This document shows, in pieces, positions 48,907 through 63,928 of a DNA stretch of 64,000 nucleotides. A program made the position numbers and the translations under genes. The stretch comes from Piscinibacter gummiphilus (GTDB lineage: Bacteria > Pseudomonadota > Gammaproteobacteria > Burkholderiales > Burkholderiaceae_C): contig NZ_CP136336.1 in the NCBI RefSeq assembly GCF_032681285.1, positions 2,343,001 through 2,407,000 on the forward strand, read 5' to 3'. The notes under the pieces were generated by a model that was given only the letters and a program-made list of their open reading frames with translations, ran no database searches and was not told the origin of the DNA. Position 1 is the stretch's first letter. Each line of letters starts with the position of its first letter.

Positions 48907-48933
48907 AAGAGGCTCGCCGGCCCCTGCGAGTCA

Positions 48934-48950
48934 CTTAAGCGGCCGTTAAA
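48934..48950 (+). promoter_or_regulatory. PmrA/QseB-like response-regulator box
   Basis: CTTAAG-CGGCC-GTTAAA is a direct repeat of YTTAAn hexamers with a 5-base spacer (11-base period), the PmrA-box layout (CTTAAT-N5-CTTAAT), 9 of 12 positions matching. It lies 59 bases before the T_hemolysin-like start and 28 bases from the ATPase start on the other strand. No clear -10 is seen. Confidence 0.45.
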
Positions 48951-49008
48951 CGAGCCGGCCGACCATGCCGGTCAGCAAGGCGATCCCTTGCGCCACCGAC
49001 CACCCATC

Positions 49009-49665
49009 ATGCATGCGCGACGCTTACACCACGCTTCAAACGAGACGCACACCTGCCGTCTGGAACTGCACGCACCGGCCTCACCGCGACGCGCGGCGGT
49101 GGAGGCCCTGATCCGCAACGTGTACGACCGCCGCTACGGCGCGCAGCCGCCGGCCTTCACGCCGGTGCTGGCGAGCCTGTCGGGCGCGCACGGCGTGGTG
49201 GCCGCAGCCGGCTACCGCGCAGCACGCGACGAGCCGCTCTTCCTCGAACGCTACCTCGGCCGACCCATCGAACATTGCCTGCCCCAGACAGCCGGCGAGC
49301 ACGTGCCCCGCGCGCAGATCGTGGAAGTGGGGCACCTTGCCACCACGCGTGCCGGAGAAGGGCGCCGCCTCATCCACTGCCTCACCCAGCACCTGGTGGA
49401 CGAGGGCTACACCTGGGTGGTGAGCACCGTCACGCGCGAGTTGCGGGCGCTCTTCCTGCGCCTGGGCATCACGCCGCTTGCGCTCGGTGCCGCCGACCCG
49501 CACAAGCTCGGTGACGAGCGCCACCACTGGGGCCGCTACTACGAACACGAGCCGGTGATCCTCGCCGGCCACCTGCCGCAGGCGATCAGCCGGCTCGACG
49601 GGGCGCACCGTCGAAGCGCCTCCGACGAGCCGCTGCCATTCTTCACGCCGGAGGGCCAGCCATGA
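49009..49665 (+). CDS. Thermostable-hemolysin family protein, GNAT/LuxI-like
   Basis: 218 residues, T_hemolysin (delta-VPH) family. Despite the name there is no signal peptide, membrane segment or toxin motif. The layout recalls GNAT and LuxI acyl-transferases: RNVYDRRYG (near 37), then VEVGHLATTRAGEGRRLIHCL (Glu107 where LuxI has its WE-x-x-R glutamate), then VVSTVTRELRALFLRLGITPLALG. It may bind an acyl or aminoacyl donor. The ATG at 49009 is chosen from the family N-terminus. The stop overlaps the next ATG (ATGA). It opens a four-gene coupled operon. Confidence 0.75.
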   Translation: MHARRLHHASNETHTCRLELHAPASPRRAAVEALIRNVYDRRYGAQPPAFTPVLASLSGAHGVVAAAGYRAARDEPLFLERYLGRPIEHCLPQTAGEHVPRAQIVEVGHLATTRAGEGRRLIHCLTQHLVDEGYTWVVSTVTRELRALFLRLGITPLALGAADPHKLGDERHHWGRYYEHEPVILAGHLPQAISRLDGAHRRSASDEPLPFFTPEGQP

Positions 49666-51092
49666 ACGTGGGTGCCGATCACTGGGCCCTCGAAGACGAG
49701 CGCGTGCGATGGACCGGCGCGCAGCTCGACGAAGCCATCGCCGCCTGCGCTGCGCAGTTGCAGGCGCGCAGCATCGAAGGGCGGCTCGCGACGCTGCTCG
49801 ACAACTCGGCCGCGTGGGTCGTGCTCGACCGCGCCTGCGTGCGCACCGGGCTCGTGCACGTGCCGCTGCCGGCCTTCTTCACGCCTGAGCAGGTGCAGCA
49901 TGCGCTCGTCACCGCGGGCGTGGGCACGCTCGTCACCGAAGTGGACGCGGAGGCCGCCGACACCTTCGCCGTGGCCGGCCGCCACCTGCGCCTTGCGCGC
50001 CACGCCGCAGCGGCGGTGCCGCTCCCGGCGGGCACCGCGAAGGTCACCTTCACGTCGGGCACCACCGGCGCGCCCAAGGGCGTGTGCCTGAGCGAAGCGG
50101 CCATGCAGCGTGTGGGCCTGGGCCTGGCCGAGCGCCTGCAGCCGCTTGGCATCACGCGCCACCTGTGTGCCTTGCCGCTGCCGGTGCTGCTGGAGAACAT
50201 CGCTGGCGTGCTGGCGCCCTTCGCTGCCGGGGCCACCTGCATCGTGCGGCCGCTGCGCGAGCTGGGCCTCACCGGCTCGTCGAGCTTCGACCCCGCCGCC
50301 TTCGACCGCGCGGTGCGCCTGCACCAGCCGCACAGCCTGGTGCTGCTGCCGCAGATGCTGCGCGCCTGGGCCGGCTGGCTGCACGCCACGCGCCAGCGCG
50401 CACCGGAAGCGTTGCGCTTCGTGGCGGTGGGCGGCGCGGCCGTCGGCCCCAAGCTGCTGGCGCTGGCGCGCGCGGTGGGGCTGCCAGCCTACGAAGGCTA
50501 CGGCCTCTCGGAAGCGGCCTCGGTGCAGACGCTCAACCTGCCCGGCGCCGACAAGCCCGGCAGCGCCGGCCGGCCGTTGCCGCACGCGCAACTGCGCATC
50601 GGCGCAGGCGGCGAGGTCGAGGTCACGGGCTCGCTGTATCTCGGCTACGTGGGTGGCCCGGCCATGACCGACGCGTGGGTGGCGACGGGCGACCTCGCCT
50701 CGATCGACCCCGACGGCTTCCTGCACCTGCAGGGCCGCCGCAAGCACGTGCTCATCACCGCCTTCGGCCGCAACGTGTCGCCCGAGTGGGTGGAGACGGT
50801 GCTGCGCGACGAGCCCGCCGTGCTGCAGGCGGTGGTCTTCGGCGAGGGCGAGCCGCAGCTCTGGGCCGTGCTGTGGCCGGTCGACCCGCGTGCCGACGAC
50901 GCCGCGCTCGACCGCGCCGTGGCCGCTGCCAACGCCACGCTGCCCGACTACGCGCGCATCGGCCGCTGGGTGCGAGGCGCCGCGCCGTTCGATGCGGCCT
51001 CGGGTTTCGCCACCGCCAACGGTCGCCCGCGGCGCGATGCCATCGAGCAGCGCCACGCCTCTTCTTCACAGCTTTCGAACCAACCGACATGA
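49662..51092 (+). CDS. AMP-dependent acyl/aryl-CoA or carboxylate ligase
   Basis: An ANL-superfamily adenylating enzyme of 476 residues, shorter than acetyl-CoA synthetases. Motifs: P-loop TFTSGTTGAPKGV, YEGYGLSEAA (A5), WVATGDLASIDPDGFLHLQGR (A7/A8) and the hinge-Lys region KHVLITAFGRNVSPEWVE. A C-terminal catalytic Lys is not obvious (the tail has NGRPRRDAIEQ), so its second half-reaction may be unusual or the product may remain an acyl-adenylate. It overlaps both neighbours by four bases. Confidence 0.88.
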   Translation: MNVGADHWALEDERVRWTGAQLDEAIAACAAQLQARSIEGRLATLLDNSAAWVVLDRACVRTGLVHVPLPAFFTPEQVQHALVTAGVGTLVTEVDAEAADTFAVAGRHLRLARHAAAAVPLPAGTAKVTFTSGTTGAPKGVCLSEAAMQRVGLGLAERLQPLGITRHLCALPLPVLLENIAGVLAPFAAGATCIVRPLRELGLTGSSSFDPAAFDRAVRLHQPHSLVLLPQMLRAWAGWLHATRQRAPEALRFVAVGGAAVGPKLLALARAVGLPAYEGYGLSEAASVQTLNLPGADKPGSAGRPLPHAQLRIGAGGEVEVTGSLYLGYVGGPAMTDAWVATGDLASIDPDGFLHLQGRRKHVLITAFGRNVSPEWVETVLRDEPAVLQAVVFGEGEPQLWAVLWPVDPRADDAALDRAVAAANATLPDYARIGRWVRGAAPFDAASGFATANGRPRRDAIEQRHASSSQLSNQPT

Positions 51093-51757
51093 GCTTCTAC
51101 GAACGACTCGCCGCCGACACGGCCGCTGCCCGCAACACCCTGCTGGCCGCACCCATCATCCAGGGCTGCCTGAAGGCCGAGGTGTCGCTGCCGAGCTACC
51201 TCGCCTTCCTCACCCAGGCCTATCACCACGTGCGGCACACCGTGCCGCTGCTCGAAGCCTGCCGCGCCGCGCTGCCGCCGCGCCTCGAGTGGATGCGCGC
51301 CGCCTTCGACGAATACATCGCCGAAGAGGCCGGCCACGACGAGTGGATCCTCGACGACATCCGCGCCGCCGGGGGCGATGCCGAAGCGGTGCGCCACGGC
51401 GAGCCGGGCCACGCGACCGAGGTGATGGTGGCCTATGCCTACGACGCCATCGCGCGCCGACACCCGCTGATGTTCCTCGGCATGGTCTACGTGCTCGAAG
51501 GCACGAGCGTGTCGCTTGCGCTCGCCGCGGCCGACCAGATCCAGCAGGCGCTCGGCCTGCCCGACAACGCCTTCAGCTACCTGCGCTCGCACGGCACGCT
51601 CGACCGCGAGCATGTGGACCACTACGCGATGCTCGTCGACGGCCTCGACGATGAAACCGACCGCGCCGCGGTGGTGCACGCCGCCAACGCCTTCTTCAAG
51701 CTCTACGGCGACGTGTTCCGCAGCCTGCCGATGCCGCGTGCCGAGGTGGTGGCATGA
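51089..51757 (+). CDS. Haem-oxygenase-like diiron oxidase/oxygenase (TenA/UndA-like)
   Basis: A 222-residue all-helical protein. Candidate iron ligands follow the UndA pattern: Glu80 and His83 (AEEAGHDEW, E-x2-H), Glu137 (YVLEGTS) and His175 or His178 (DREHVDHY). TenA-type active-site cysteines are not seen at the usual position. Members of this superfamily oxidatively cleave, desaturate or hydroxylate small or acyl substrates. It is the third gene of the coupled operon, with ATGA overlaps on both sides; the substrate is likely a product of the adjacent ligase. Confidence 0.82.
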   Translation: MSFYERLAADTAAARNTLLAAPIIQGCLKAEVSLPSYLAFLTQAYHHVRHTVPLLEACRAALPPRLEWMRAAFDEYIAEEAGHDEWILDDIRAAGGDAEAVRHGEPGHATEVMVAYAYDAIARRHPLMFLGMVYVLEGTSVSLALAAADQIQQALGLPDNAFSYLRSHGTLDREHVDHYAMLVDGLDDETDRAAVVHAANAFFKLYGDVFRSLPMPRAEVVA

Positions 51758-52563
51758 AGGCCGGCGAGGCGCGCGTGCTGCTCACGGGCGCTGCGGGCGG
51801 CATCGGCCGCGCCGTGGCCGCACGGCTCGTGCGCTCGGGCGCCTCGGTGATGCTGGTGGGGCGCTCGGCGGCACGGCTCGCGAGCCTCGCGCGTGAACTC
51901 GCCGCTTCGGTCGGGGCCGACCCCACCGACGAGAAGCGCCTCGCCTGGCGCGTGGCCGACCTCACCGACCCCAAGGCCCTCGCGCAGCTGGCCGGCGATG
52001 CCGCCCAGTGGCACTGCAACGTGCTCGTGCACGGCGCGGGCGTGCCCGCGTTTGGCCCCATCGCCGAGCTGGAGGCCGCGCACCTCAACACGCTCGTGGC
52101 GACCAACCTTATCGCGCCCATCCTGCTCACGCAGGCGCTGCTGCCCCACCTGCGCACGCGCACGAAGGCGCAGGTGATCTGCATCGGCTCGGCACTCGGC
52201 CGCCTCGGCCTGCCGGGCTTTGCCGCCTACAGTGCCACCAAGTTCGGCCTGCGTGGCTTTGCCGAGGCGCTGCGCCGCGAGCTGGCCGGCACGCCGGTGC
52301 GCGTGCAGTACCTCGGCCCGCGCAGCACGCAGACCAACTTCAACGACGCCCGCGCCGAGGCCTACGCGCGCGACACCGGCGCCACGCTCGACACGCCCGA
52401 ACGTGTGGCCGACGCGCTGCTCGCACTGCTGGAAAGCGAGCGGGCCGAACGCTACGTGGGCTTCCCCGAAGTGATCGCGGTGCGCCTGAACGGCCTCGCG
52501 AGTTCGTGGCTCGACGGTGCGTTCCGCAAGCACCGCGACAGCCTTCAACCCCGCAACCGATAG
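51754..52563 (+). CDS. Short-chain dehydrogenase/reductase
   Basis: An NAD(P)-dependent oxidoreductase of 269 residues with a classical SDR fold. The cofactor motif is TGAAGGIG (11-18), the active site is Ser146, Tyr159 and Lys163 (YSATK), and HGAG stands for the NNAG motif. GRS after beta-2 suggests NADPH preference. It is the fourth gene, overlapping the diiron oxidase stop by four bases. It would reduce or oxidise a carbonyl intermediate of the pathway. Confidence 0.9.
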   Translation: MKAGEARVLLTGAAGGIGRAVAARLVRSGASVMLVGRSAARLASLARELAASVGADPTDEKRLAWRVADLTDPKALAQLAGDAAQWHCNVLVHGAGVPAFGPIAELEAAHLNTLVATNLIAPILLTQALLPHLRTRTKAQVICIGSALGRLGLPGFAAYSATKFGLRGFAEALRRELAGTPVRVQYLGPRSTQTNFNDARAEAYARDTGATLDTPERVADALLALLESERAERYVGFPEVIAVRLNGLASSWLDGAFRKHRDSLQPRNR

Positions 52564-53262: not shown

Positions 53263-53303
53263 TGCTTACACTGCGCCTCGCGAGGACTCTCTGCGAGGTG
53301 AGC

Positions 53304-53984
53304 ATGCGTGTGCTGGTGGTGGAAGACGACGGCCCGCTCGGCGAGGCGCTGGCCGAGGGCCTGCGCCAGATCGGCCATGCGGTCGACTGGTTCACCACCG
53401 GCGCCGAGGCCGACAACGCGCTCGGTGTGGCACCGTATGACGCCATCGTGCTCGACCTCGGCCTGCCCGGGCGCGACGGCCTGTCGTGGCTGGCCGAGTG
53501 GCGGCGGCGCGCCATCGCGGTGCCGGTGCTCGTGCTGACGGCGCGCGACGCGGTCGAGCAGCGCATCGAGGGCCTGGACACCGGCGCCGACGACTACCTC
53601 GTCAAGCCCATCACCATCGACGAACTCGGCGCCCGCCTGCGCGCGCTCGGCCGCCGCGCTGCCGGGGGCCGCGCGCAATCGGTGTGGCAGCACGGGGCGC
53701 TGTCGTTCAACGCGTCGTCGCGTGCCGTCGAGTGGTGCGGCCGGCCGGTCGAGCTCACGGCGCGCGAGACGGCGGTGCTGGAGGTGCTGATGTCGAACCC
53801 GCACCGTGTGCTGTCGAAGGCGGCGATGCTGGAGAAGCTCTACGACTGGTCGCGCAACGAACCCGAGGGAAACTCGCTGGAGGTGCACATCCACCACCTG
53901 CGGCGCAAGCTCGGCCCATCGGTCGTGCGCACGGTGCGCGGCGTGGGCTACGCCCTGGGCACGGCCGAGCCCGAAGCGCCATGA
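53304..53984 (+). CDS. OmpR-family response regulator, QseB/PmrA-like
   Basis: 226 residues. The receiver domain has the acidic pocket Glu7-Asp8-Asp9, phospho-acceptor Asp51 (DLGLPGRDG) and Lys101 (YLVKP). The winged-helix output domain is at about 130-222 (ELTARETAVLEVLMSNPHRVLSK...VRTVRGVGYAL). The ATG at 53304 is preferred over the in-frame GTG at 53298. The stop overlaps the kinase ATG. A PmrA/QseB-type box in front of the T_hemolysin operon could be its target. Confidence 0.92.
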   Translation: MRVLVVEDDGPLGEALAEGLRQIGHAVDWFTTGAEADNALGVAPYDAIVLDLGLPGRDGLSWLAEWRRRAIAVPVLVLTARDAVEQRIEGLDTGADDYLVKPITIDELGARLRALGRRAAGGRAQSVWQHGALSFNASSRAVEWCGRPVELTARETAVLEVLMSNPHRVLSKAAMLEKLYDWSRNEPEGNSLEVHIHHLRRKLGPSVVRTVRGVGYALGTAEPEAP

Positions 53985-55342
53985 CGCTGCAGCGCCGCCT
54001 GCTTGTCTACCTGATGCTGTGCGCGCCGCTCGTGTGGGTGGTCGCCTTCGCGATCTCGTTCGACCGGGCGCGCGACGAGGTCGATGAACTCTTCGACACC
54101 GAACTCATCCGCCTCGTGCGCCAGGTGCACGCGCTGCTGCCGCCCGATGGCGATGCGAGCCGGGTCTCGTTCGGCGAGCTGCCCAAGATGCCGAAGACCG
54201 GCGACGCGAGCAGCGGCGCCGCGGAGATGAACGACTTCGCCATCGCCGTGTGGGACCGCACCGGCCGCCGCGTGCTCGACCATGACGGCAACGGCCTCGA
54301 GCACAAGCCCGGGCGCAACGGCTTCGTCAATGAGACCCACGGCGGCGAGGTGTGGCGCGTGTACTACCTGAGCTCCGCCTCGGGCGCGTGGCACGTGGCC
54401 GCGGGCCAGCTCGACCATGAGCGCGACGAGCTGGTGTACGACGTCACGCTGAGCCAGCTCTTCCCCTGGATCGTGATGCTGCCGGTGCTGATCGGCGCGA
54501 TGGCCTGGGCGGTGCGGCGGGCGCTCGCGCCCATGCAGCACCTGGCCTACCAGATCGGACACCGTGGCGCCGACGACCTCACGCCCATCGCCACCGAGCG
54601 CCAGCCCGGCGAGCTGCTGCCGCTGCTCGACGCGATGAACGGCCTCTTCAAGCGGGTGGCTGACGTGCTCGCGCGCGAGCGCCGCTTCACCGGCGATGCC
54701 GCGCACGAGCTGCGCACGCCGCTTGCAGCGCTGCGGGCGCAGTGGGATGTGGTGCGCCGCGCGGCGCCCGGCCCGTCTCGTGCACACGCCGAGGAGCGGC
54801 TGGCCTCGGGGCTCGACCGCATGGACCGGCTCGTGGCCCAGCTGCTGATGCTTGCGCGGGTGGAGTCGGTGCGCCCCGGCAGTGCCGCCCCCGCGAAGGA
54901 CGAGATCAACTGGCGCAGCATCGTCGAAGAGGTGGTGGCCGACTGCCTGCCGCTCGCCGAGCGGCGCCACATCGAGATCGTTTGCGAGTGGCCGCCCGAC
55001 GACCGGCGCGCGCTGCCGATGCTCGGCAGCAGGCCGCTGCTGGCGGTGATGCTGCGCAACCTGCTCGACAACGCGGTGCGCTACGCGACCGGACACACCA
55101 CGGTCAGCATCCGCTTCACCGAAACCGGCCTCACCGTCGACAACGACGCTGCGGCGATCCCGCCCGAGCACTTCGCGCGGCTCGGCGAGCGGTTCCACCG
55201 CGTCGAGGGCCAGGCCGAGTCGGGCAGCGGCCTCGGCATCTCGATTGCGAGCCGCATCGCGGCGCTGCACGGCCTGGTCGTGGCGGTGGGCCCGCAGCCG
55301 GGCGGGCGGGGCTTCTGCGCCAGGGTGCAGTTCGCGCCCTGA
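53981..55342 (+). CDS. Sensor histidine kinase, QseC/PmrB-like
   Basis: 453 residues. Two membrane helices (about 8-27 and 160-180) enclose a periplasmic sensor of about 130 residues; then HAMP-like and HisKA domains with His242 (AAHELRTPLAALRAQ), and a HATPase domain (NLLDNAVRYA, SGSGLGISIA). The ATG at 53981 overlaps the response-regulator stop by four bases. The sensor domain shows no obvious ligand motif. Confidence 0.92.
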   Translation: MTLQRRLLVYLMLCAPLVWVVAFAISFDRARDEVDELFDTELIRLVRQVHALLPPDGDASRVSFGELPKMPKTGDASSGAAEMNDFAIAVWDRTGRRVLDHDGNGLEHKPGRNGFVNETHGGEVWRVYYLSSASGAWHVAAGQLDHERDELVYDVTLSQLFPWIVMLPVLIGAMAWAVRRALAPMQHLAYQIGHRGADDLTPIATERQPGELLPLLDAMNGLFKRVADVLARERRFTGDAAHELRTPLAALRAQWDVVRRAAPGPSRAHAEERLASGLDRMDRLVAQLLMLARVESVRPGSAAPAKDEINWRSIVEEVVADCLPLAERRHIEIVCEWPPDDRRALPMLGSRPLLAVMLRNLLDNAVRYATGHTTVSIRFTETGLTVDNDAAAIPPEHFARLGERFHRVEGQAESGSGLGISIASRIAALHGLVVAVGPQPGGRGFCARVQFAP

Positions 55343-55621: not shown

Positions 55622-56581
55622 CTAGCGGGTGCCGGGCGCGGCATGCTGCCGCAGCCACGGCACGAGAAAGGCCTCGGAAAACCGTGCGAGGCCCTGGCGG
55701 TTGAGGTGGTCGGAGTCGAAATACAGCGTCGCGTCGTCGATGCTGCGTGACTGGTCCTGCACCTCGGCGCCGGTGCGTAGTGCCAGGGCCGCAAGCGCCG
55801 CGTCGAAGGCACCTTCGTCGGGGAGCTGGCGGCGAAAGCCCGCCGGCAGCGGCATCTTGAGCAGGTGCAGCGTCATGCCGTGGGCGCGTGCGGTGCCGAG
55901 GAGCCTGGCCAGCTCGTCCATGTAGCGCGTGAGCGCGTCTTCCGGTGTGCCTTGCGGGTACAGGTAGGCGATGCGCTTTCGCGTGGCCGTGGCCGATGCG
56001 CGCGCCGAGCGGTCGAACTGCGCCTCGCCTTCCCACGCATCGGGTTCGAAACGGTTGCGGTTGTTGATCTTCGAGAAGCCGGTCGTGTAGTCGAGGAGCG
56101 CCCGTGGGTCGACCCCGTCTTCGGCCACGTGGCGGGCGAGGCTTGCGGCCAGCGAGGCACGCCAGGGGGTGCGGGCGAGCAGCTTCGCATCGGCGAGGCG
56201 GTCTTCGTTCCAGGTGCGCGAGTAGAAGGCGAACGAATCGACCACATACAGCAGGTGGCGTGCGCGGTGGCCCGACTGCAGGTAGTGCTCGAACACCCAG
56301 CGGTTGTAGAGCGGCCCGGTGCCGGGGCCGGCGAGCTGAACGAGGCGCTGGCCCGTGGCCTGTTCGAGCGATTCGTTGACGCCGGCGAAGCCGAGCGGCA
56401 TGGCGTGCGAGGCGCCCAGCACCACCCAGTCGGCCGTGCCCGGCGGCAGCTGCTCGACCCTGAACACGGGGTTGCTGTGGCCCTGGCGCTGCAGCAGCTG
56501 CTCGGCCGCTGCGTAGAGCGCGAGGTACAGCAGCAGGCCAATGGTGCAGAAGAGCAGAGCCGGGCGCCACAAGGTCTTCAT
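55622..56581 (-). CDS. SGNH/AlgJ-like membrane-anchored protein, MBOAT partner
   Basis: 319 residues. One N-terminal membrane helix (about 8-27) anchors a periplasmic domain with a block-I-like nucleophile Ser58 (WVVLGASHA) and a C-terminal D-x-x-H-like block (YFDSDHLNRQGL), the AlgJ/AlgX/SGNH acylesterase layout. It follows the MBOAT gene (8 bp), a pairing used to O-acylate surface polysaccharides. The acceptor is unknown. Confidence 0.78.
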   Translation of the reverse strand: MKTLWRPALLFCTIGLLLYLALYAAAEQLLQRQGHSNPVFRVEQLPPGTADWVVLGASHAMPLGFAGVNESLEQATGQRLVQLAGPGTGPLYNRWVFEHYLQSGHRARHLLYVVDSFAFYSRTWNEDRLADAKLLARTPWRASLAASLARHVAEDGVDPRALLDYTTGFSKINNRNRFEPDAWEGEAQFDRSARASATATRKRIAYLYPQGTPEDALTRYMDELARLLGTARAHGMTLHLLKMPLPAGFRRQLPDEGAFDAALAALALRTGAEVQDQSRSIDDATLYFDSDHLNRQGLARFSEAFLVPWLRQHAAPGTR

Positions 56582-56588
56582 CGCAGGC

Positions 56589-58034
56589 TCAGAACTGCAT
56601 GTAGATGAATTCGCGCGACTGCCAGCGCCCGCCGAGGAGCAGCGCCGCGATGGCGAGGTAGCACACGCCCCAGCGCAGCGCGGTCGGTGCGGCACGCAGC
56701 CGCTCGAAGAGGCTCCGGCGTTCATCGACGAGCTCGACGATCAGGAGCCCGGCGATCAGCGCGGCCCCGAGCTTGTGGTCGGCACCGAAGGGGTAGCTCA
56801 TCGCGAGGCCGGGCAACTCGGGCAGTTGCGTGGCGATGCGCTTGAGCACGAGCCACGCTTCCTCGATCGTCTTCGCGCGGAAGAACACCCAGCTCACCAG
56901 CACGAGGTGGAAGGTGAGCAGCACGCGCAGCGTCGCCCACCCGAGGCTGCCGGCCGCTCGCGGAAGCGCGCGCGCGAGCCGCTGCCACAGCGGGCGGGTG
57001 GCGACGCCGCCCCACAGGTAGGCGCCGTTGAGCGCACCCCAGACGAGAAAGGTCCAGCCCACGCCGTAGCCGAGCCCCGCATGCCAGAGGCCGCTCGCCA
57101 GAAACACGATCATCAGGTTGAGGTAGTGCCGCACCCGGCCGGCGCGGCTGCCGCCGAGCGGCAGGTACAGGTAGTCGCGGAACCAGCGGCCGAGCGAGAT
57201 GTGCCAGCGTTCGCCCCAGAACTCGGCCGTGCTGCGCGCGAGGTAGGGTCGGCGGAAGTTCTCGATCAGCGGCAGGCCGAAGAGCATCGAGATGCCGATG
57301 GCCATGTCGGTGTAGCCGGAGAAGTCGCAGTAGATCTGGAAGGCGAAGAAATACACGCTCACCAGCAGGTCGACGGGCGAGGCGTAGGCCGCGATGCCGA
57401 AGGTCTTGTCGACGAAGGGCGCAAGGTTGTCGGCGATCAGCACCTTCTTGACCAGGCCCCACAACAGGAGCTGCAGACCGTGGACTGCGAGTTCCGGGCT
57501 TGGGCTCAGGCCCTCGCGCACGCGCGGCAGGAAGGCGGTGGCGCGCTCGATCGGCCCGGCCAGCACCTTCGGGAAGTGCGCAAGGTAGAGCGCGAGCTCG
57601 CCGGGGCCGGCAGGGTGCAGGCGGCGCGCGTAGGTGTCGATCAAGAGGCTCGCGGCTGAAAACGCATAGAAGGAATAGCCCGCCGGCGAGGCGAGGCCGA
57701 GCCGCGGCAGTGCCGCCCCTTCGACGAGCCGCTCGATCTCGCCGGCCGCGAAGTCGTAGAACTTGAGGGCCGCAAGCGACCCCAGCACGGTGGTGAGCCC
57801 GAGCACGAGCCAGGCCGAGCGTGCCGCGGCCTGTGCACGCGCCAGCGCCTGGGTGCACACGAGCACGACGGCGGTCACGCCGCCGAGGTACAGCAGGTTC
57901 GCGGGCTTTGCAAAGCCATAGAAGACCCAGCTCGCCAGCAGCAGCACCGCCCAGCGCCGGTCGGCCCGCACGAGCCCGAAGCACACCAGCGTGAGCGGCA
58001 GGAAGAGCAGGAATTCGAGCGAGGTGAAGAGCAT
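56589..58034 (-). CDS. MBOAT-family membrane O-acyltransferase, AlgI/DltB-like
   Basis: 481 residues, about ten membrane helices. Family blocks are FWGERWHISLGRWFRDYLYLPLGGS and the invariant His in SGLWHAGLG. It moves acyl groups across the membrane for O-acylation of a surface polymer. It sits 30 bp downstream of the cytochrome genes and 8 bp before the SGNH partner, so it may share their transcript, though the function looks separate. Confidence 0.9.
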   Translation of the reverse strand: MLFTSLEFLLFLPLTLVCFGLVRADRRWAVLLLASWVFYGFAKPANLLYLGGVTAVVLVCTQALARAQAAARSAWLVLGLTTVLGSLAALKFYDFAAGEIERLVEGAALPRLGLASPAGYSFYAFSAASLLIDTYARRLHPAGPGELALYLAHFPKVLAGPIERATAFLPRVREGLSPSPELAVHGLQLLLWGLVKKVLIADNLAPFVDKTFGIAAYASPVDLLVSVYFFAFQIYCDFSGYTDMAIGISMLFGLPLIENFRRPYLARSTAEFWGERWHISLGRWFRDYLYLPLGGSRAGRVRHYLNLMIVFLASGLWHAGLGYGVGWTFLVWGALNGAYLWGGVATRPLWQRLARALPRAAGSLGWATLRVLLTFHLVLVSWVFFRAKTIEEAWLVLKRIATQLPELPGLAMSYPFGADHKLGAALIAGLLIVELVDERRSLFERLRAAPTALRWGVCYLAIAALLLGGRWQSREFIYMQF

Positions 58035-58064: not shown

Positions 58065-58664
58065 TCAGTAGGTCGCGCCCCCGGCTCGCAACTCTTCGGG
58101 CACATCGTCGATGGGGATGCCGCCGTTGATCACGAGGTAGTTCGCCAGTGCCTCGCGCTGGTCGGGCTTGAGCTTGATCTGCACGTGGCTCGGCTTGCCC
58201 ATCGTCCCGAGCCATGCCTCCTTGGTGCGCTTCTGGGTGATGACAACGGTGATGATGTGGCAGCCCTGGCAGTAGTTGAGCGCGAAGTCGCGCCCGTCGG
58301 GCGGCAGGGCCTTCGCCCAATTGGCCTGCGAGGGCGGCGACGGCGCCTTGAGGCCGGATTGCGGCATGTTGGCGGCGAGGTAGTCGGCCAGCGTGCGCAC
58401 CTGTTGCTCGTCGAGCTTCTGCAGGCCGGCGATGGCCTTGTCGTGGCCGCGCAGGTAGGCCACCCACTCGTCGCGGCTCTTCTTGCCCGAGAGCACGGCG
58501 TTGAGTTCGGCGTCTGCCGGCCGGCTGCCGAAGACGCGGGCGAAGAGGGTGCGGCCGCCGTCGGGGATGAAGTCGAAGACGTCAGCCGCCAGCGCGAAGA
58601 GCGGCAGCGCGAAGAGCGGCAGCGCGAGGGCCAGTGCGGCGGCGGCGCGAGCGGTGGGTTTCAC
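58065..58664 (-). CDS. Exported monohaem c-type cytochrome, copy A
   Basis: 199 residues with a Sec signal (about 1-27). One haem site, CQGCH (Cys132, Cys135, His136), with a Met in EAWLGTMGKPSH as a possible axial ligand. The N-terminal half (GGRTLFARVFGSRPADAEL...LADYLAANMP) resembles the haem half but lacks CxxCH, as if one of two ancestral haem domains had lost its cofactor. It is a paralogue of the next gene upstream, sharing GGRTL, PxDGR, CQxCH, TQxR and DDVPxxLR. Probable periplasmic electron carrier for the adjacent E1/MtrAB genes. Confidence 0.85.
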   Translation of the reverse strand: MKPTARAAAALALALPLFALPLFALAADVFDFIPDGGRTLFARVFGSRPADAELNAVLSGKKSRDEWVAYLRGHDKAIAGLQKLDEQQVRTLADYLAANMPQSGLKAPSPPSQANWAKALPPDGRDFALNYCQGCHIITVVITQKRTKEAWLGTMGKPSHVQIKLKPDQREALANYLVINGGIPIDDVPEELRAGGATY

Positions 58665-58701: not shown

Positions 58702-59286
58702 TCAGAAGCGCAGGTCCTTCGGTACGTCGTCGGTGTTCATCGGCATGTTGATCGCGGAGTAGCGCGCGAACTCCTCGCGCTCCTGCGGCGTCATCTTCAG
58801 CTCGCGGTGGAAGGGCGAGAGGAACATGTTTCGCCAGCCCTGCACGTCGCGCCGCTGGGTGAGGTGGCTGGAATAGAGCGAGTGGCAGAACTGGCACTGC
58901 TGCCAGGCGAGTTCACGGCCGTCGCGCGGCAGCACGTCTGCGAGCTTGCCCGGCTGGAGCGAGGCGAGGGCCTTCTCGGGCAGCGGCATGTTGACGCTCA
59001 GGTAGGCCGCAAGCGTGGCCTTCTCGCGCGCGCCAGCCGGCACCGCGCGCCCGGCGACGAAGGCCTCCCACTGCGCGTCGGTGTTGCGGCTCGACGCGAT
59101 GCGGCGGAACTCGTCGACGCCCGGTTGTGCGCCGAGCGATTCGAGCAGTAGCGTGCGGCCGCCCTTGGGCATGAAACGCTCGTCTTCGCCCTGGGCGTTG
59201 GCGACGGCGAAGGTGATGAACGCGAGGATCAGCCCGAGTGCAAGCCACCCCAGCACGCGCATGCCGAAGAGACGCCCTGTTCTCAC
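58702..59286 (-). CDS. Exported monohaem c-type cytochrome, copy B
   Basis: 194 residues from the GTG at 59286, which overlaps the stop of the zinc-ribbon gene (GTGA); an ATG at 59262 (MRVLGWLALG) would begin right at the hydrophobic signal/anchor (about 10-29). One haem site CQFCH (Cys131-His135). The same degenerate N-terminal half as copy A is present (GGRTLLLESLGAQPGVDEF...LAAYLSVNMP). The tandem copies are 37 bp apart. Confidence 0.85.
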   Translation of the reverse strand: MRTGRLFGMRVLGWLALGLILAFITFAVANAQGEDERFMPKGGRTLLLESLGAQPGVDEFRRIASSRNTDAQWEAFVAGRAVPAGAREKATLAAYLSVNMPLPEKALASLQPGKLADVLPRDGRELAWQQCQFCHSLYSSHLTQRRDVQGWRNMFLSPFHRELKMTPQEREEFARYSAINMPMNTDDVPKDLRF

Positions 59287-59594
59287 GACACGTTCCTGAC
59301 GGCCGGCGCTTCGCCGTAGTCGAACACCGCCACCTCGACGGTGCGCACCGCCTGCTCGGCGGGAAAGCCGCCACCCCGCAGGATGTCCAGGCCGATGGCG
59401 GTGCGGTCGTCGTAGAACTGGTCGCCGCAGCGCTCGCACACGAGTGCCGGGATGCCTTCCACCACGACCAGGCGATCGTCATGCCAGAAGGCCGAGCGCA
59501 CGCGGCTGGCGTGCACCTCGGCGCTGCCGCACGACATGCAGCGAAACGAGGGCGCGGCTTCGCCTTCGGGTTCGAACGGGAGTTGCATCTCCAT
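59283..59594 (-). CDS. YgiT-type zinc-ribbon protein
   Basis: 103 residues. Two CxxC pairs (Cys19/Cys22 in FRCMSCGS and Cys53/Cys56 in VCERCGDQF) form a zinc ribbon as in YgiT/MqsA N-termini. No HTH domain follows, and no MqsR toxin is adjacent, so a toxin-antitoxin role is unlikely. It is 4 bp from the E1 beta stop and overlaps the cytochrome B start. Possible role: regulator or assembly factor of this unit. Confidence 0.8.
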   Translation of the reverse strand: MEMQLPFEPEGEAAPSFRCMSCGSAEVHASRVRSAFWHDDRLVVVEGIPALVCERCGDQFYDDRTAIGLDILRGGGFPAEQAVRTVEVAVFDYGEAPAVRNVS

Positions 59595-59598
59595 CGGC

Positions 59599-60570
59599 TC
59601 ACCCCACCAGCTTCTTGGCCGCGTTGACGATGTGGGTGGCGTTCGGGCGCATCCAGAGGAACATCTCGGGCGATGCCGGGGGCGCCGCGTCGGGGAAGGC
59701 CACGCGGTTGAAGCGTGCGCCGTTCACGTTCTCGGCCACACGCGCGATGACCTCGGCGCCGGGGCACAGCGTGTAGTACGACTGGTCCACGGTGAGCAGC
59801 CGCTTGGTCTTCTGCACCGACTTCACGAGCGTCTCGGTGTCCATCGGCTTCAGGCTGCGCAGGTCGATCACCTCGACCTTCATGCCCTGCTTCTTCAGTT
59901 GCTCGGCGGCATCGAGCACCTCGGGCATGCCGCCGCCCGAGCCGACGATGGTGATGTCGCTGCCGGTCGAGCGCACCGCGGCCTTGTCGAGCGGCACGGT
60001 GTACTGCTCGTCGGGCACCTCGTCGACCAGTTCGCGCAGGCCAGCGGCGTAGAGGAAGCACACCGGGTTCGGGTCGCGGATGGCCGAGACCATCATGCCC
60101 TTGGCGTCGTACGGCGTCGACGGCACCACCGTCTTCACGCCGGGGATGTGGGCGTAGTAGGTGTCGATTTCGTAGTCGGAGTGCTGGCCCGCGAAGCCGG
60201 GCGTCTGCCCGGTCATCTCGAGGATGAAGACCACCGGCATCGAGGCCACGCCGCCGGTCATCCCGCGCAGCTTGCCCACGTGGTTCTGGATGATCTGGAA
60301 GCACATGCAGTTGCCCTGGTAGGGGATGTAGGTCACGGCCTTGCTGCCGGCCAGGCCCGCCCCGAGGGTGGCCGCGGCCATCCACATCTCGTCGATGCCG
60401 GTGTTGACCACGCGGTTGCGGCCGAACTCCTTCTCGAGGTTGATGACGGGCTTGCCGGGGTTGGACGAAACGGGCGGCGTCAATTCGAAGATCCAGACCA
60501 TCGCCGGGTCCTGTCGCATTTCGTACTGCACCGCCTCGAGGACGGAATACATGAAGCTCTTGCGTGCCAT
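59599..60570 (-). CDS. 2-oxoacid dehydrogenase E1 beta-like subunit (transketolase C-terminal type)
   Basis: 323 residues. It has the pyrimidine-binding TPP domain with the catalytic Glu61 (NTGIDEMWM), His130 in FAGQHSDYE, then a transketolase C-terminal domain (ITIVGSGGGMPEVLDAAEQL, VEVIDLRSLKPMD). The segment canonical for GxRPVxE is replaced by GSKAVTYIPYQGN, so it is divergent from PDH/BCKDH E1 beta. It lacks a signal peptide of its own. It is 12 bp downstream of the E1 alpha stop, with an AGGAGA site. Forms an alpha2beta2 enzyme with E1 alpha, probably co-exported. Confidence 0.88.
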   Translation of the reverse strand: MARKSFMYSVLEAVQYEMRQDPAMVWIFELTPPVSSNPGKPVINLEKEFGRNRVVNTGIDEMWMAAATLGAGLAGSKAVTYIPYQGNCMCFQIIQNHVGKLRGMTGGVASMPVVFILEMTGQTPGFAGQHSDYEIDTYYAHIPGVKTVVPSTPYDAKGMMVSAIRDPNPVCFLYAAGLRELVDEVPDEQYTVPLDKAAVRSTGSDITIVGSGGGMPEVLDAAEQLKKQGMKVEVIDLRSLKPMDTETLVKSVQKTKRLLTVDQSYYTLCPGAEVIARVAENVNGARFNRVAFPDAAPPASPEMFLWMRPNATHIVNAAKKLVG

Positions 60571-60582
60571 GGTGTTGTCTCC

Positions 60583-61809
60583 TCAACCGAATTGGCGGGC
60601 CGCCACCGAGCCGGTGGTGTACACGTGCTTGAGCCCGTCTTCGGGCTTGCAGAAGGGTTGCTGGTCGGCCCACGCGAAGGCGTCGATGGCCTCCTGCTTG
60701 GCCGCCGCCTCGATGCGGTCGGCGCGTGCGCGGTCGAGCACACCCCAGCTGATGAGCACGTTGCGGCAGATGTCGACCGGGTCGCGCTGCATCCACTCGC
60801 GCACCTCGCGCTCGGGGCGGAAGGTCGAGATCGCCAGCGGGTCGTAGCCGAACGCGCCCAGCTCGCCCGGCTTGGCACCGGGCGCTCCCCAGTGGTTGTA
60901 GTAGCGGTAGGTCTTGGCTTCGATGAGCGTCGGCCCTTCGCCGGCACGGGCGCGGTCGACGGCGGTCTTGGCGGCGTTGTAGACCTGGAACACGTCCTGC
61001 CCATCGACCACCACGCCGGGGATGCGGTAGGTGCGCGCCGCATCGGCGATGTCCTTCATCGGGCACGAGTACGAGTAGTGCGCGTACTGGTGGTAGAGGT
61101 TGTTCTCCAGCACGTAGATGAAGGGCAGCTTGAGCAGCGCGGCGTTGTTGAGCGCGGCGTGGAAGTGCGGCGTGGCGTAGGTGCCGTCGCCTGCGAACAC
61201 CACCGACACCTGCTTGCTGCCGCGCGCCTTGAAGGCGAAGGCCGAGCCGGTGGCGATCACATGGCCGGGGCCGATCATGCCGTCGGCGCCGATGAAGCCG
61301 CAGCTCTTGTCCGACAGGTGCATCTCGCCGCCGTAGCCGCCGTTGAGGCCGGTGGCGCGGAAGTCGTTCTCCGCAGCCATCTTCTTCATGTCCACGCCCT
61401 TGGCGATGGCGTGGCCGGTCGGGCGGTGCGAGCTGTAGACGAAGTCGACCTGGTCGAACGAACCCTTGTTGTTGAGCGCGGAGCACACGCCCACGGCCAC
61501 CGCTTCCTGGCCCGCGTAGAAGTGGTTGTAGCCGCGGTACTTGGTGTCGGTGAGCATCTTGTCGACCATGGTCCGCTCGTGCCAGCGGATGCGCACGATG
61601 TCGGTGTACATCTGGACCAGCTTGTCGCCGGGCAGGTCCTTCGCCCAGTAGCCGATCTCCTGCGCCCACGCGCTCTTGTTCAGCAGCGATACCGCGGCGC
61701 CTGCGCCGGCCACGGCCTTGAAGAAGCCGCGTCGATTCGAAGGCAGCAAGCCTTCGGCGGAGGGAGGCGCGTCGTGCGGCGCCCCCGTGGGGGTGGTGGC
61801 ATCTGTCAT
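60583..61809 (-). CDS. 2-oxoacid dehydrogenase E1 alpha-like subunit with twin-arginine signal
   Basis: 408 residues. The N-terminus carries a Tat signal: SNRRGFFK (Arg26-Arg27), a weakly hydrophobic stretch AVAGAGAAVSLL and the cleavage motif AWA-QE near residue 49. The mature part is a TPP-binding E1 alpha: HRPTGHAIAKG (His128, His133), NGGYGGEMHL, GDG (207-209) ... ENN (235-237). No E2, E3 or lipoyl gene is nearby. A strong AGGAGA site lies before the ATG at 61809, and an FNR-like box is centred 80 bases upstream. I infer a periplasmic TPP dehydrogenase feeding electrons to the adjacent cytochromes. The substrate is unknown (a 2-oxoacid or acetoin-like compound). Confidence 0.88.
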   Translation of the reverse strand: MTDATTPTGAPHDAPPSAEGLLPSNRRGFFKAVAGAGAAVSLLNKSAWAQEIGYWAKDLPGDKLVQMYTDIVRIRWHERTMVDKMLTDTKYRGYNHFYAGQEAVAVGVCSALNNKGSFDQVDFVYSSHRPTGHAIAKGVDMKKMAAENDFRATGLNGGYGGEMHLSDKSCGFIGADGMIGPGHVIATGSAFAFKARGSKQVSVVFAGDGTYATPHFHAALNNAALLKLPFIYVLENNLYHQYAHYSYSCPMKDIADAARTYRIPGVVVDGQDVFQVYNAAKTAVDRARAGEGPTLIEAKTYRYYNHWGAPGAKPGELGAFGYDPLAISTFRPEREVREWMQRDPVDICRNVLISWGVLDRARADRIEAAAKQEAIDAFAWADQQPFCKPEDGLKHVYTTGSVAARQFG

Positions 61810-61881: not shown

Positions 61882-61895
61882 TTGACGAATCGCAA
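61882..61895. promoter_or_regulatory. FNR/ANR-like box upstream of the E1 alpha gene
   Basis: TTGAC-GAAT-CGCAA matches the consensus at 7 of 10 positions with TTG and CAA intact. It lies in the only gap (94 bp) of the minus-strand run, between the MtrB-like stop and the E1 alpha start. CACGAT on the minus strand (61855-61860) could serve as -10. Confidence 0.5.
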
Positions 61896-61903
61896 TGCGC
61901 CGT

Positions 61904-63928
61904 TCAGCGCCAGGGCAGGGTATAGCGAAGACCGATGGAAGCGGCTTCTTGCCGCGGTGCAGCAAGCAACCTGCTGCCGTCGGCATAGGGGAAGGAGATG
62001 TTGGCGCAGCCGTATGCCCAGTCGTTCCAGCGGGTGTGGCTGTAGCGCAGGTCGAGCCGCCAGTGCGCCTGCTCGCCGGCCTTGCCGCGTGCGAAGAGCG
62101 CCAGCGTGCGCTGCCGCAGCCGCACGTCGGGCAGGCCGCCGCTTGCGGCGAGCAGCTCGGCGTCGCCGAGGCCTGCGGTGGTGTCGAGCGTCTGCCGGTA
62201 GCGGCTCAGGTCGTCGGCGAACGAGAGCGCCGCGCCGATCTGCAGCCGCTCGTGCGGCTGCCCGGTGAGGCCGACGCCGGCCTGCGTGCTGCGGTTGTCG
62301 AACACGATGGCGGCGGCCGAGGGCCGCGACTGCGGCAGGCGCTGGGTGGCGTGCGACACGTTGGCATCGAGCCGCCAGTTCGCCGGCAATGCGTAGTCGA
62401 CGTCGAGCCCGATCCAGCGTGTGTTGGCGCCGTGCAGCCCGTAGGGGCTGGGCGAGCTGTAGCGGTCGCGCCCTGCGCGGGCCGACACGCTCAGGTGCAG
62501 GCGGCTGTCGGCCTGCCAGTCGGTCGAGAGCTGCACTTCGTCGCGGTCTCGGTCGGCCAGCGTGGGCATGAAGATGCCGGTGGCGAAACCGGTCGACGGG
62601 TCGGCGGGGTTGGTGACCTCGGTGACGCCTGCGCCGCTGTTGTCGCGCAGCCAATTGGAGCCGCTGCGCCGCGCGTGCAGCAGCGTGAGCGCGGCGCCTA
62701 GGCCGTCGTCCACCTGCTGCCGCGCGCTTGCGCGCAGCGTGGTCTCGCGCGTGTGCTGGCGCAGCGCGGTGGTGCCGGCGATGGCCGCCGTGGAAGTGAA
62801 GACGCCGCGGTCGATGGCTTCATGCTCGAGCGACAGCGAACCTTGCCGCGTGCGGTCGAGCTGGTAGAGCGCCTGCACGCGGGCACGGTCGGTCTGGTGC
62901 GGCAGGCGGCGGTTGGTGAACTGCGTGGCGCCTTCCACGTGATAGGCGGCGAGCGGTGTGCGGTCGTCGCGCTCGCGCCGGCTCAGCTCGCCGTTGATCG
63001 AGAGGCGTGGCAGCGGCCGCGAGGTGAGCCTCACCAGCAGGTGGGTGGTGACCGTCTCGCCGCCGAGATCGGTCACGCCTGCGGGTGCGCCAGGGAGCCC
63101 CGCGTCGGCGAACGACTGGCGTTGTGTGACCTGCTCGCGCGCGAGCTTTGCGGCCACGCGGGTGTGGCGGTTGAACGCGTAGCTGCCGGTGAGGTCGAGG
63201 TGGTGCGCGTTGCTGTCGGGGGGCAGTGCGATGGGCTGCTGCAGTTGCGACTGCAGGCCCGCGGCGAGCGGCACGAGCGTGCCGGTGGCGTTGTAGAGCG
63301 CGGCGGGCACCGAGGGCACGAGCGTGTCGTGCAGGTTGCGGAAGTACGAGCCGTGGTAGCCGCCCGACAACTGCCACTGCGGCCCGGCATAGGCCAGGCG
63401 CGCTTCGAGCTGCGTGTGCTCGTCGTGCAGCGGCTCGGGCAGCAGCAGCACCGCCCAGCCGCTTTCGCCCGCGCCGGGGGGTGCGCATCCGCCATCGGCG
63501 CTCGTGGGGCAGCTGACGCCGCGGCCGGTGAGCCGGTTGCCGGTGCGGCGCCCGTGCGAGAGGTCGAGGTCGAGGCGCAGGCGCGAGCTGATCGCCTTGT
63601 CGAGATGCAGGCCGAGTTCGGTGCGGCGGATGTGCAGGTCGACTTCCTGCAGGTCGGGCGCAGTCGAGACCTGCGGTTGGGTCGTGCCACCGTTCACCAC
63701 CGGGCTGCTCAGGCGTTGCAAGGGCGGCTGTCGCGTGGCGTCGCGCAGCCGCAGCATCGCCTTCCAGTCGCCCGGCTGCGTGGCGCCGAGCTCGACCTCA
63801 CGTTGCTGCTGCAGCGTGCCACCGCTGGCCTGCACGCTCGCGCTCGTTTGGGGGTCGTCATCGGCATGCACGGCCTGGCCGTCGATCGCCAGCAGCGCGA
63901 TCACGCCTGCGCGCAGCAGCCGGCTCAT
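61904..63928 (-). CDS. MtrB/PioB-family outer-membrane beta-barrel protein
   Basis: 674 residues with a signal peptide (about 1-22). The rest is a long series of alternating polar/hydrophobic strands ending in a terminal aromatic-rich strand (ASIGLRYTLPWR), as in MtrB/PioB/MtoB barrels that sheath a multihaem cytochrome across the outer membrane. Length fits the family (about 650-750). The Shewanella MtrB N-terminal CxxC is absent; two cysteines occur in GVSCPTSADGGCAPP. Its ATG overlaps the stop of the multihaem cytochrome gene upstream (ATGA), the usual mtrA-mtrB order. Confidence 0.85.
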   Translation of the reverse strand: MSRLLRAGVIALLAIDGQAVHADDDPQTSASVQASGGTLQQQREVELGATQPGDWKAMLRLRDATRQPPLQRLSSPVVNGGTTQPQVSTAPDLQEVDLHIRRTELGLHLDKAISSRLRLDLDLSHGRRTGNRLTGRGVSCPTSADGGCAPPGAGESGWAVLLLPEPLHDEHTQLEARLAYAGPQWQLSGGYHGSYFRNLHDTLVPSVPAALYNATGTLVPLAAGLQSQLQQPIALPPDSNAHHLDLTGSYAFNRHTRVAAKLAREQVTQRQSFADAGLPGAPAGVTDLGGETVTTHLLVRLTSRPLPRLSINGELSRRERDDRTPLAAYHVEGATQFTNRRLPHQTDRARVQALYQLDRTRQGSLSLEHEAIDRGVFTSTAAIAGTTALRQHTRETTLRASARQQVDDGLGAALTLLHARRSGSNWLRDNSGAGVTEVTNPADPSTGFATGIFMPTLADRDRDEVQLSTDWQADSRLHLSVSARAGRDRYSSPSPYGLHGANTRWIGLDVDYALPANWRLDANVSHATQRLPQSRPSAAAIVFDNRSTQAGVGLTGQPHERLQIGAALSFADDLSRYRQTLDTTAGLGDAELLAASGGLPDVRLRQRTLALFARGKAGEQAHWRLDLRYSHTRWNDWAYGCANISFPYADGSRLLAAPRQEAASIGLRYTLPWR

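Follow-up and report, generated by a model that had tools for sequence, protein, structure and literature searches.

The window analysed here, a stretch of 64,000 nucleotides from Piscinibacter gummiphilus, carries a cluster of seven genes that is real and conserved, and whose function we infer from sequence: it may encode an exported 2-oxoacid dehydrogenase that works without E2 and E3, with cytochromes c as the electron acceptor and pyruvate as the likeliest substrate, a reading that we hold to be moderately probable. The genes follow the order E1 alpha (with a twin-arginine, Tat, leader), E1 beta, zinc ribbon, two monoheme cytochromes c, DltB-like MBOAT, and DltD-like SGNH; E1 alpha stands first, and the six genes downstream of it share its strand, separated from one another by 4 to 37 bp. 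All seven genes occur in the same order and on the same strand in 44 of the 44 related loci with enough contig downstream. Counted gene by gene, in cluster order, the presence downstream of E1 alpha is 54/54, 52/52, 52/52, 50/50, 47/47 (MBOAT), and 44/44 (SGNH).

The E1 alpha gene occupies positions 60583..61809 of the minus strand and encodes 408 aa in an intact frame with an ATG start, as the preliminary description had placed it. The longest frame over the gene begins further upstream, at 61986, and measures 467 aa; a Shine–Dalgarno-like stretch, AGGAGA, is seen by eye 6 nt 5' of the ATG. The protein matches PF00676 (E1 dehydrogenase family; E 3.9e-56, 190.7 bits, best stretch 86–306) and solved E1 alphas (1um9_A, 3.3e-32; 2ozl_A, human PDH, 4.4e-30). 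Its TPP-binding motifs GDG...NN are intact, as described earlier: GDG (207–209) and ENN (235–237), together with H306, are invariant in 17 aligned members. The E1_dh domain with these motifs, and a beta partner whose catalytic residues are conserved, place the pair among the alpha/beta-type 2-oxoacid dehydrogenase E1 enzymes; the kept residues of both subunits presumably have the catalytic roles that we assign to them. The alpha subunit scores below the curated cut-offs of the pyruvate dehydrogenase models, with 233.2 bits against 393.85 for TIGR03182 and 179.7 against 411.35 for TIGR03181. Its homologues are named pyruvate dehydrogenase E1 or acetoin:DCPIP oxidoreductase in the databases, names that conceal the apparently exported nature of the enzyme.

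The first 49 residues of E1 alpha (61663..61809, minus strand) form a Tat leader. Residues 24–31, encoded at 61717–61740, read SNRRGFFK and are followed by AVAGAGAAVSLLNKSAWA|QE, with a weakly hydrophobic h-region and cleavage predicted by eye at AWA|Q; a motif of the S/T-R-R-x-F-L-K type, a weak h-region, and an A-x-A site give the sequence the form of a Tat substrate. The preliminary description had reported this signal, and conservation confirms it. RR is present within the first 60 residues in 119 of the 120 best homologues (the best 120 of 5061 at E <=1e-20, among 8000 candidates), the sole exception being a shortened database protein, P0077, that begins at about residue 67, past the leader. 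A contig scan yielded 57 loci, 55 of which represent the family of leader-bearing E1 alpha; 3 of these 55 are cut by contig ends before the leader region, and all 52 that hold it have RR, an arbitrary residue, and a hydrophobic one. A strict Tat score requires, besides this pattern, an uncharged hydrophobic 13-residue window. Of the 52 loci, 44 pass it, as do 107 of the 120 homologues; in a set of 65 locus rows, in which the window's own gene appears 3 times and 7 rows repeat contig loci, 53 pass. The score is reached by none of the 31 ordinary E1 alphas, which are rows of low identity, and by 20 of 6000 N-termini after shuffling. Across 17 diverse members, invariance within the first 30 residues is confined to M1, R26, R27, and F29. 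Among the related loci, none has the same neighbours with an E1 alpha devoid of RR, and none has a start after residue 50.

The second gene (59599..60570, minus strand) encodes the E1 beta subunit of 323 aa, which matches PF02780 (1.3e-29), PF02779 (2.5e-15), and the PDH E1 beta 3duf_B (2.2e-50); E61 and H130 are invariant in the aligned members. The subunit has no leader of its own in the window or elsewhere in the 54 loci; the one flag raised, in L011, is an artefact that an internal stop produces in the scoring. In that locus (L011, 9972–10943, from a Devosia metagenome bin) the stop lies within a conserved stretch near the start of the E1 beta gene and reflects a sequencing error or decay. 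The third gene (59283..59594, minus strand) encodes a YgiT-type zinc-ribbon protein of 103 aa with no leader seen (TIGR03831, 46.5 bits at a cut-off of 20.2); two CxxC are conserved in 8 aligned members, and the protein perhaps has a role in maturation.

Two small cytochromes c follow, both on the minus strand: cytochrome c A (58702..59262, ATG start by eye) and its paralogue, cytochrome c B (58065..58664). Each has one CxxCH and a Sec-type leader, as monoheme cytochromes c should; the leaders are judged by eye and the heme attachment is predicted. In cytochrome c A, CQFCH and a second His are invariant in 14 aligned members. Neither protein has a good match to any known family: no Pfam or NCBIfam family is matched by A, and a Foldseek search with B gives no match at E 0.001 or better.

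The last two genes encode an MBOAT acyltransferase (56589..58034, minus strand; PF03062, 9.3e-26), assigned to the DltB type by a sequence profile that finds DltB (8jem_A, 3.9e-31), and an SGNH protein with an N-terminal membrane helix (55622..56581, minus strand). The latter has the SGNH fold with Ser and Asp-x-x-His of the DltD/AlgJ-type acyltransferases, its catalytic residues being invariant. The cluster core contains no DltA or DltC and hence does not make up a Dlt pathway. Just past the cluster, on the opposite strand (53298–55342, plus), are a response regulator (PF00072/PF00486) and a sensor kinase (PF02518), not conserved beside most relatives; further on (48868–52563, plus), a thermostable-hemolysin-family protein (PF12261), an AMP-binding enzyme, and an SDR oxidoreductase stand in a row, possibly as a small biosynthetic cluster.

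A search for a linked E2 with tblastn, using the genome's own two E2 loci, and with a lipoyl motif that recognises both E2s of the P. gummiphilus genome found none in the 55 loci (926,323 bases). The nearer of the two E2 genes of this genome lies about 49 kb from the cluster, beside a 986-aa E1 frame. A dedicated lipoyl E2 partner, as expected for a 2-oxoacid dehydrogenase complex, is absent at the cluster, and an E2 could be encoded, unlinked, elsewhere.

A periplasmic location of E1 alpha, proposed in the preliminary description, would follow from the Tat leader. To that description the analysis adds the leaderless beta subunit, the MBOAT/SGNH pair, and the FNR-type boxes. Both the leader and the location are supported by RR kept in two clades whose E1 alphas are 37% identical, by the strict linkage of both leader-bearing cytochromes c, by TatC, which indicates Tat machinery in the P. 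gummiphilus genome (E 2.1e-68), and by the lack of a linked E2; from these sequence features we strongly infer that the E1 alpha of the window is exported to the periplasm via Tat.

The second of these clades is represented by a divergent cluster in the genome G705, a single locus from which the gene order of the clade is known, and this order is the same as in the window. Identities to the window proteins are 37% for E1 alpha, 44% for E1 beta, 38% for the zinc ribbon, 48% for MBOAT, and 43% for SGNH; two small frames, examined by eye, each have one CxxCH and a leader. The E1 alpha of G705 carries its own Tat leader (GLSRRSFLQ...ARA), and a relaxed score assigns a Tat-like leader to 113 of its best 120 homologues; the remaining 7 are shortened proteins of 332–372 aa. 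In a 61-row tree, 33 leader-bearing rows from both clades fall on one side of a branch and 28 ordinary E1 alphas on the other (support 100/98); another tree separates 62 from 30 rows (support 100/100). Both trees carry long-branch warnings. A single gain of the Tat leader by E1 alpha is the simplest reading.

Loci with the cluster are found in Alphaproteobacteria and Betaproteobacteria, and the distribution is patchy: one of 11 genomes of the genus and one of 274 of the class, each time the P. gummiphilus genome of the window. In one alphaproteobacterial family, 7 of 248 genomes have the E1 alpha at a cut-off of 1e-80; the cytochrome profile matches the same 7, and the SGNH profile matches these 7 and one more, G705. 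The divergent E1 alpha of G705 is missing from the count because the cut-off excluded it, and it was located through its SGNH gene. We regard this family as Rhodobacteraceae-like, since each of the 7 proteins is identical, across the tree columns, to that of a named locus. Among the matches listed for a 398-genome sample of the phylum, the clade appears only in the window's own genome, the others having <=45% identity; the divergent E1 alpha, used as a query at 1e-70, retrieves only the window's own E1 alpha from this sample. Plasmid transfer was considered and rejected: 9 plasmid records match, every one at <60% identity, and at 1e-60 the divergent clade has no match among plasmid records.

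Upstream of E1 alpha, a box of the form TTGA-N6-TCAA, which we take to be a site of the FNR/FixK/DNR type, recurs across the family. The exact box is present within 260 bp upstream in 23 of 51 loci, versus 0.2% of 2040 dinucleotide shuffles, and TTGAT-N4-ATCAA with at most one mismatch in 20 of 51 loci, versus 0.7% of shuffles. The window has an FNR-type box with one mismatch (TTGACGAATCGCAA, 61882..61895), 72 bp before the start of E1 alpha; alone it is weak evidence, because boxes with at most one mismatch turn up in 6.7% of shuffles of such regions. Recurring neighbours of the cluster encode Crp/Fnr regulators, universal stress proteins, Hsp20, DUF2267, and nitroreductases; together with the boxes, they fit low oxygen or stress.

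Other neighbours occur in part of the family and point to acetyl chemistry there. In 7 of 55 loci, an acetate--CoA ligase is encoded no more than about 2.4 kb from the cluster (all 7 exceed the NCBIfam cut-off). A carrier-protein-family frame occurs in 6 of 55; the two of these frames that were tested score above the Pfam cut-off and below the NCBIfam cut-offs. In two loci (L004, 4295–7027; L017, 18588–21158), large proteins that combine carrier, AMP-binding, and acyltransferase domains are encoded near the cluster. In two others a dodecin gene, Pfam-tested in L033, stands just before acetate--CoA ligase and carrier genes (L033, 7574–7789; L049, 7347–7613).

Directly upstream of E1 alpha, the minus strand of the window (61904–63928, continuing on the adjoining L112, 426–5227) encodes an MtrB/PioB-type porin and MtrA-like and MtrC/OmcA-like multiheme cytochromes, then BON-domain and universal stress proteins. 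To judge by sequence, these Mtr genes form a putative extracellular electron conduit. As a component of the system the Mtr genes were rejected: an MtrB match is found in none of the 55 related loci with the flanks examined, so that the adjacency is a feature of the P. gummiphilus genome. Ramlibacter lithotrophicus also has the cluster, and its strain RBP-2 is reported to express mtrCAB (PMC8805035).

In the mechanism that we favour, E1 alpha and E1 beta would take up TPP-Mg and fold in the cytoplasm, from which the folded E1 would leave through Tat on the leader of alpha, with beta probably co-exported as a hitchhiker. In the periplasm, the enzyme would decarboxylate a 2-oxo acid; pyruvate is the likeliest one, as suggested by the enzyme family and the neighbours in 7 loci. 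The two small cytochromes c may then oxidise hydroxyalkyl-TPP one electron at a time and pass the electrons to the respiratory chain, and the acyl group would be released as the acid (acetate) or passed on by the MBOAT/SGNH pair to some component of the envelope. Control of the FNR type suggests operation at low oxygen or under stress. An acetoin:DCPIP oxidoreductase has been assayed with TPP, and E1 can give electrons to the dye (PMC4275255). Periplasmic, cytochrome-coupled oxidative decarboxylation is favoured because cytochromes c that replace the dye outside the membrane need no new chemistry. Against it counts the size of the E1 tetramer, which would make a large Tat cargo.

The MBOAT/SGNH pair is kept as strictly as the cytochromes and is unexplained by oxidation alone; it would either consume the acyl product or modify something that the enzyme needs. 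Here lies the basis of an alternative that we consider tentative and unlikely, respiration-driven acylation of the envelope outside the cytoplasm: the periplasmic TPP enzyme, oxidised by the cytochromes c, would turn a 2-oxo acid into an activated acyl group, which the DltD-like SGNH transferase and MBOAT would transfer to a glycan or lipid, with no need for CoA, lipoate, or NAD. The presence of MBOAT in 47/47 and SGNH in 44/44 loci with room, the occurrence of both in the divergent cluster, their likeness to DltB and DltD, and the invariant SGNH catalytic residues speak in its favour. We know, however, of no transfer of an acyl group from acyl-TPP to an SGNH enzyme; known MBOAT systems draw it from cytoplasmic CoA or a carrier protein, and the acetate--CoA ligase and carrier-family frames that adjoin some clusters would suit this ordinary route.

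It is doubtful, and to us distinctly improbable, that the exported E1 is no oxidase at all. It would then act as a periplasmic TPP decarboxylase or carboligase, with the cytochromes serving a separate step of the same pathway. TPP enzymes of the E1 fold also do non-oxidative chemistry, and the path of electrons from E1 to the cytochromes is putative; yet in both clades E1 keeps the two cytochromes c at their place in the gene order, and E1-family enzymes give electrons to acceptors (PMC4275255). A non-functional leader on an ordinary cytoplasmic E1, to which the start of P0077 past the leader, the leaderless E1 beta, and the two E2 genes of the genome would be agreeable, is very hard to reconcile with the invariance of M1, R26, R27, and F29 alone among the first 30 residues of 17 diverse members, with a leader kept at 37% identity and found in 0 of 31 control E1 alphas, and with the lack of E2 in the related loci.

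The putative exported oxidase resembles the heterotetrameric E1 of pyruvate, acetoin, and branched-chain 2-oxoacid dehydrogenases (PF00676 with PF02779/PF02780) in fold, alpha and beta subunits, TPP motif, and catalytic Glu and His, and differs from it in the Tat leader, the linked cytochromes c, the lack of a linked E2 and probably of a linked E3, its own branch, and scores under both PDH E1 alpha cut-offs. With periplasmic dehydrogenases that have cytochrome c subunits, e.g., sulfite dehydrogenase SorAB, it shares, as predicted here, an exported catalytic subunit and small cytochrome c acceptors; the catalyst here is a TPP enzyme, whereas that of SorAB is a molybdenum one, and cytochrome c B, which is weakly SorB-like, scores below the curated cut-off and was rejected as a SorB. 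The acyl export pairs DltB/DltD, AlgI/AlgJ, and PatA/PatB likewise combine MBOAT with a membrane-anchored SGNH; here, however, the pair is fixed to E1 and cytochromes, and DltA/DltC are missing from the core. PoxB, a pyruvate:quinone oxidoreductase, is a flavoenzyme that belongs to a different TPP family and sits on the cytoplasmic side, where it converts pyruvate to acetate without E2/E3 and passes the electrons to the respiratory chain; the cluster enzyme would do likewise, but with cytochromes and in the periplasm. Literature searches, which largely covered papers outside subscription, uncovered no description of an exported E1 or of the seven-gene cluster. The components are of known kinds; their combination is apparently undescribed.

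Generally, the well-known 2-oxoacid dehydrogenases are intracellular and depend on E2/E3, CoA, and NAD. If the reading of the cluster as an exported, cytochrome-coupled dehydrogenase is true, the range of compounds oxidised directly in the periplasm would extend to 2-oxo acids, and Tat would count a TPP enzyme among its cargoes. Central metabolism would thereby be linked to respiration at low oxygen and, in the P. gummiphilus genome, perhaps to extracellular electron transfer.
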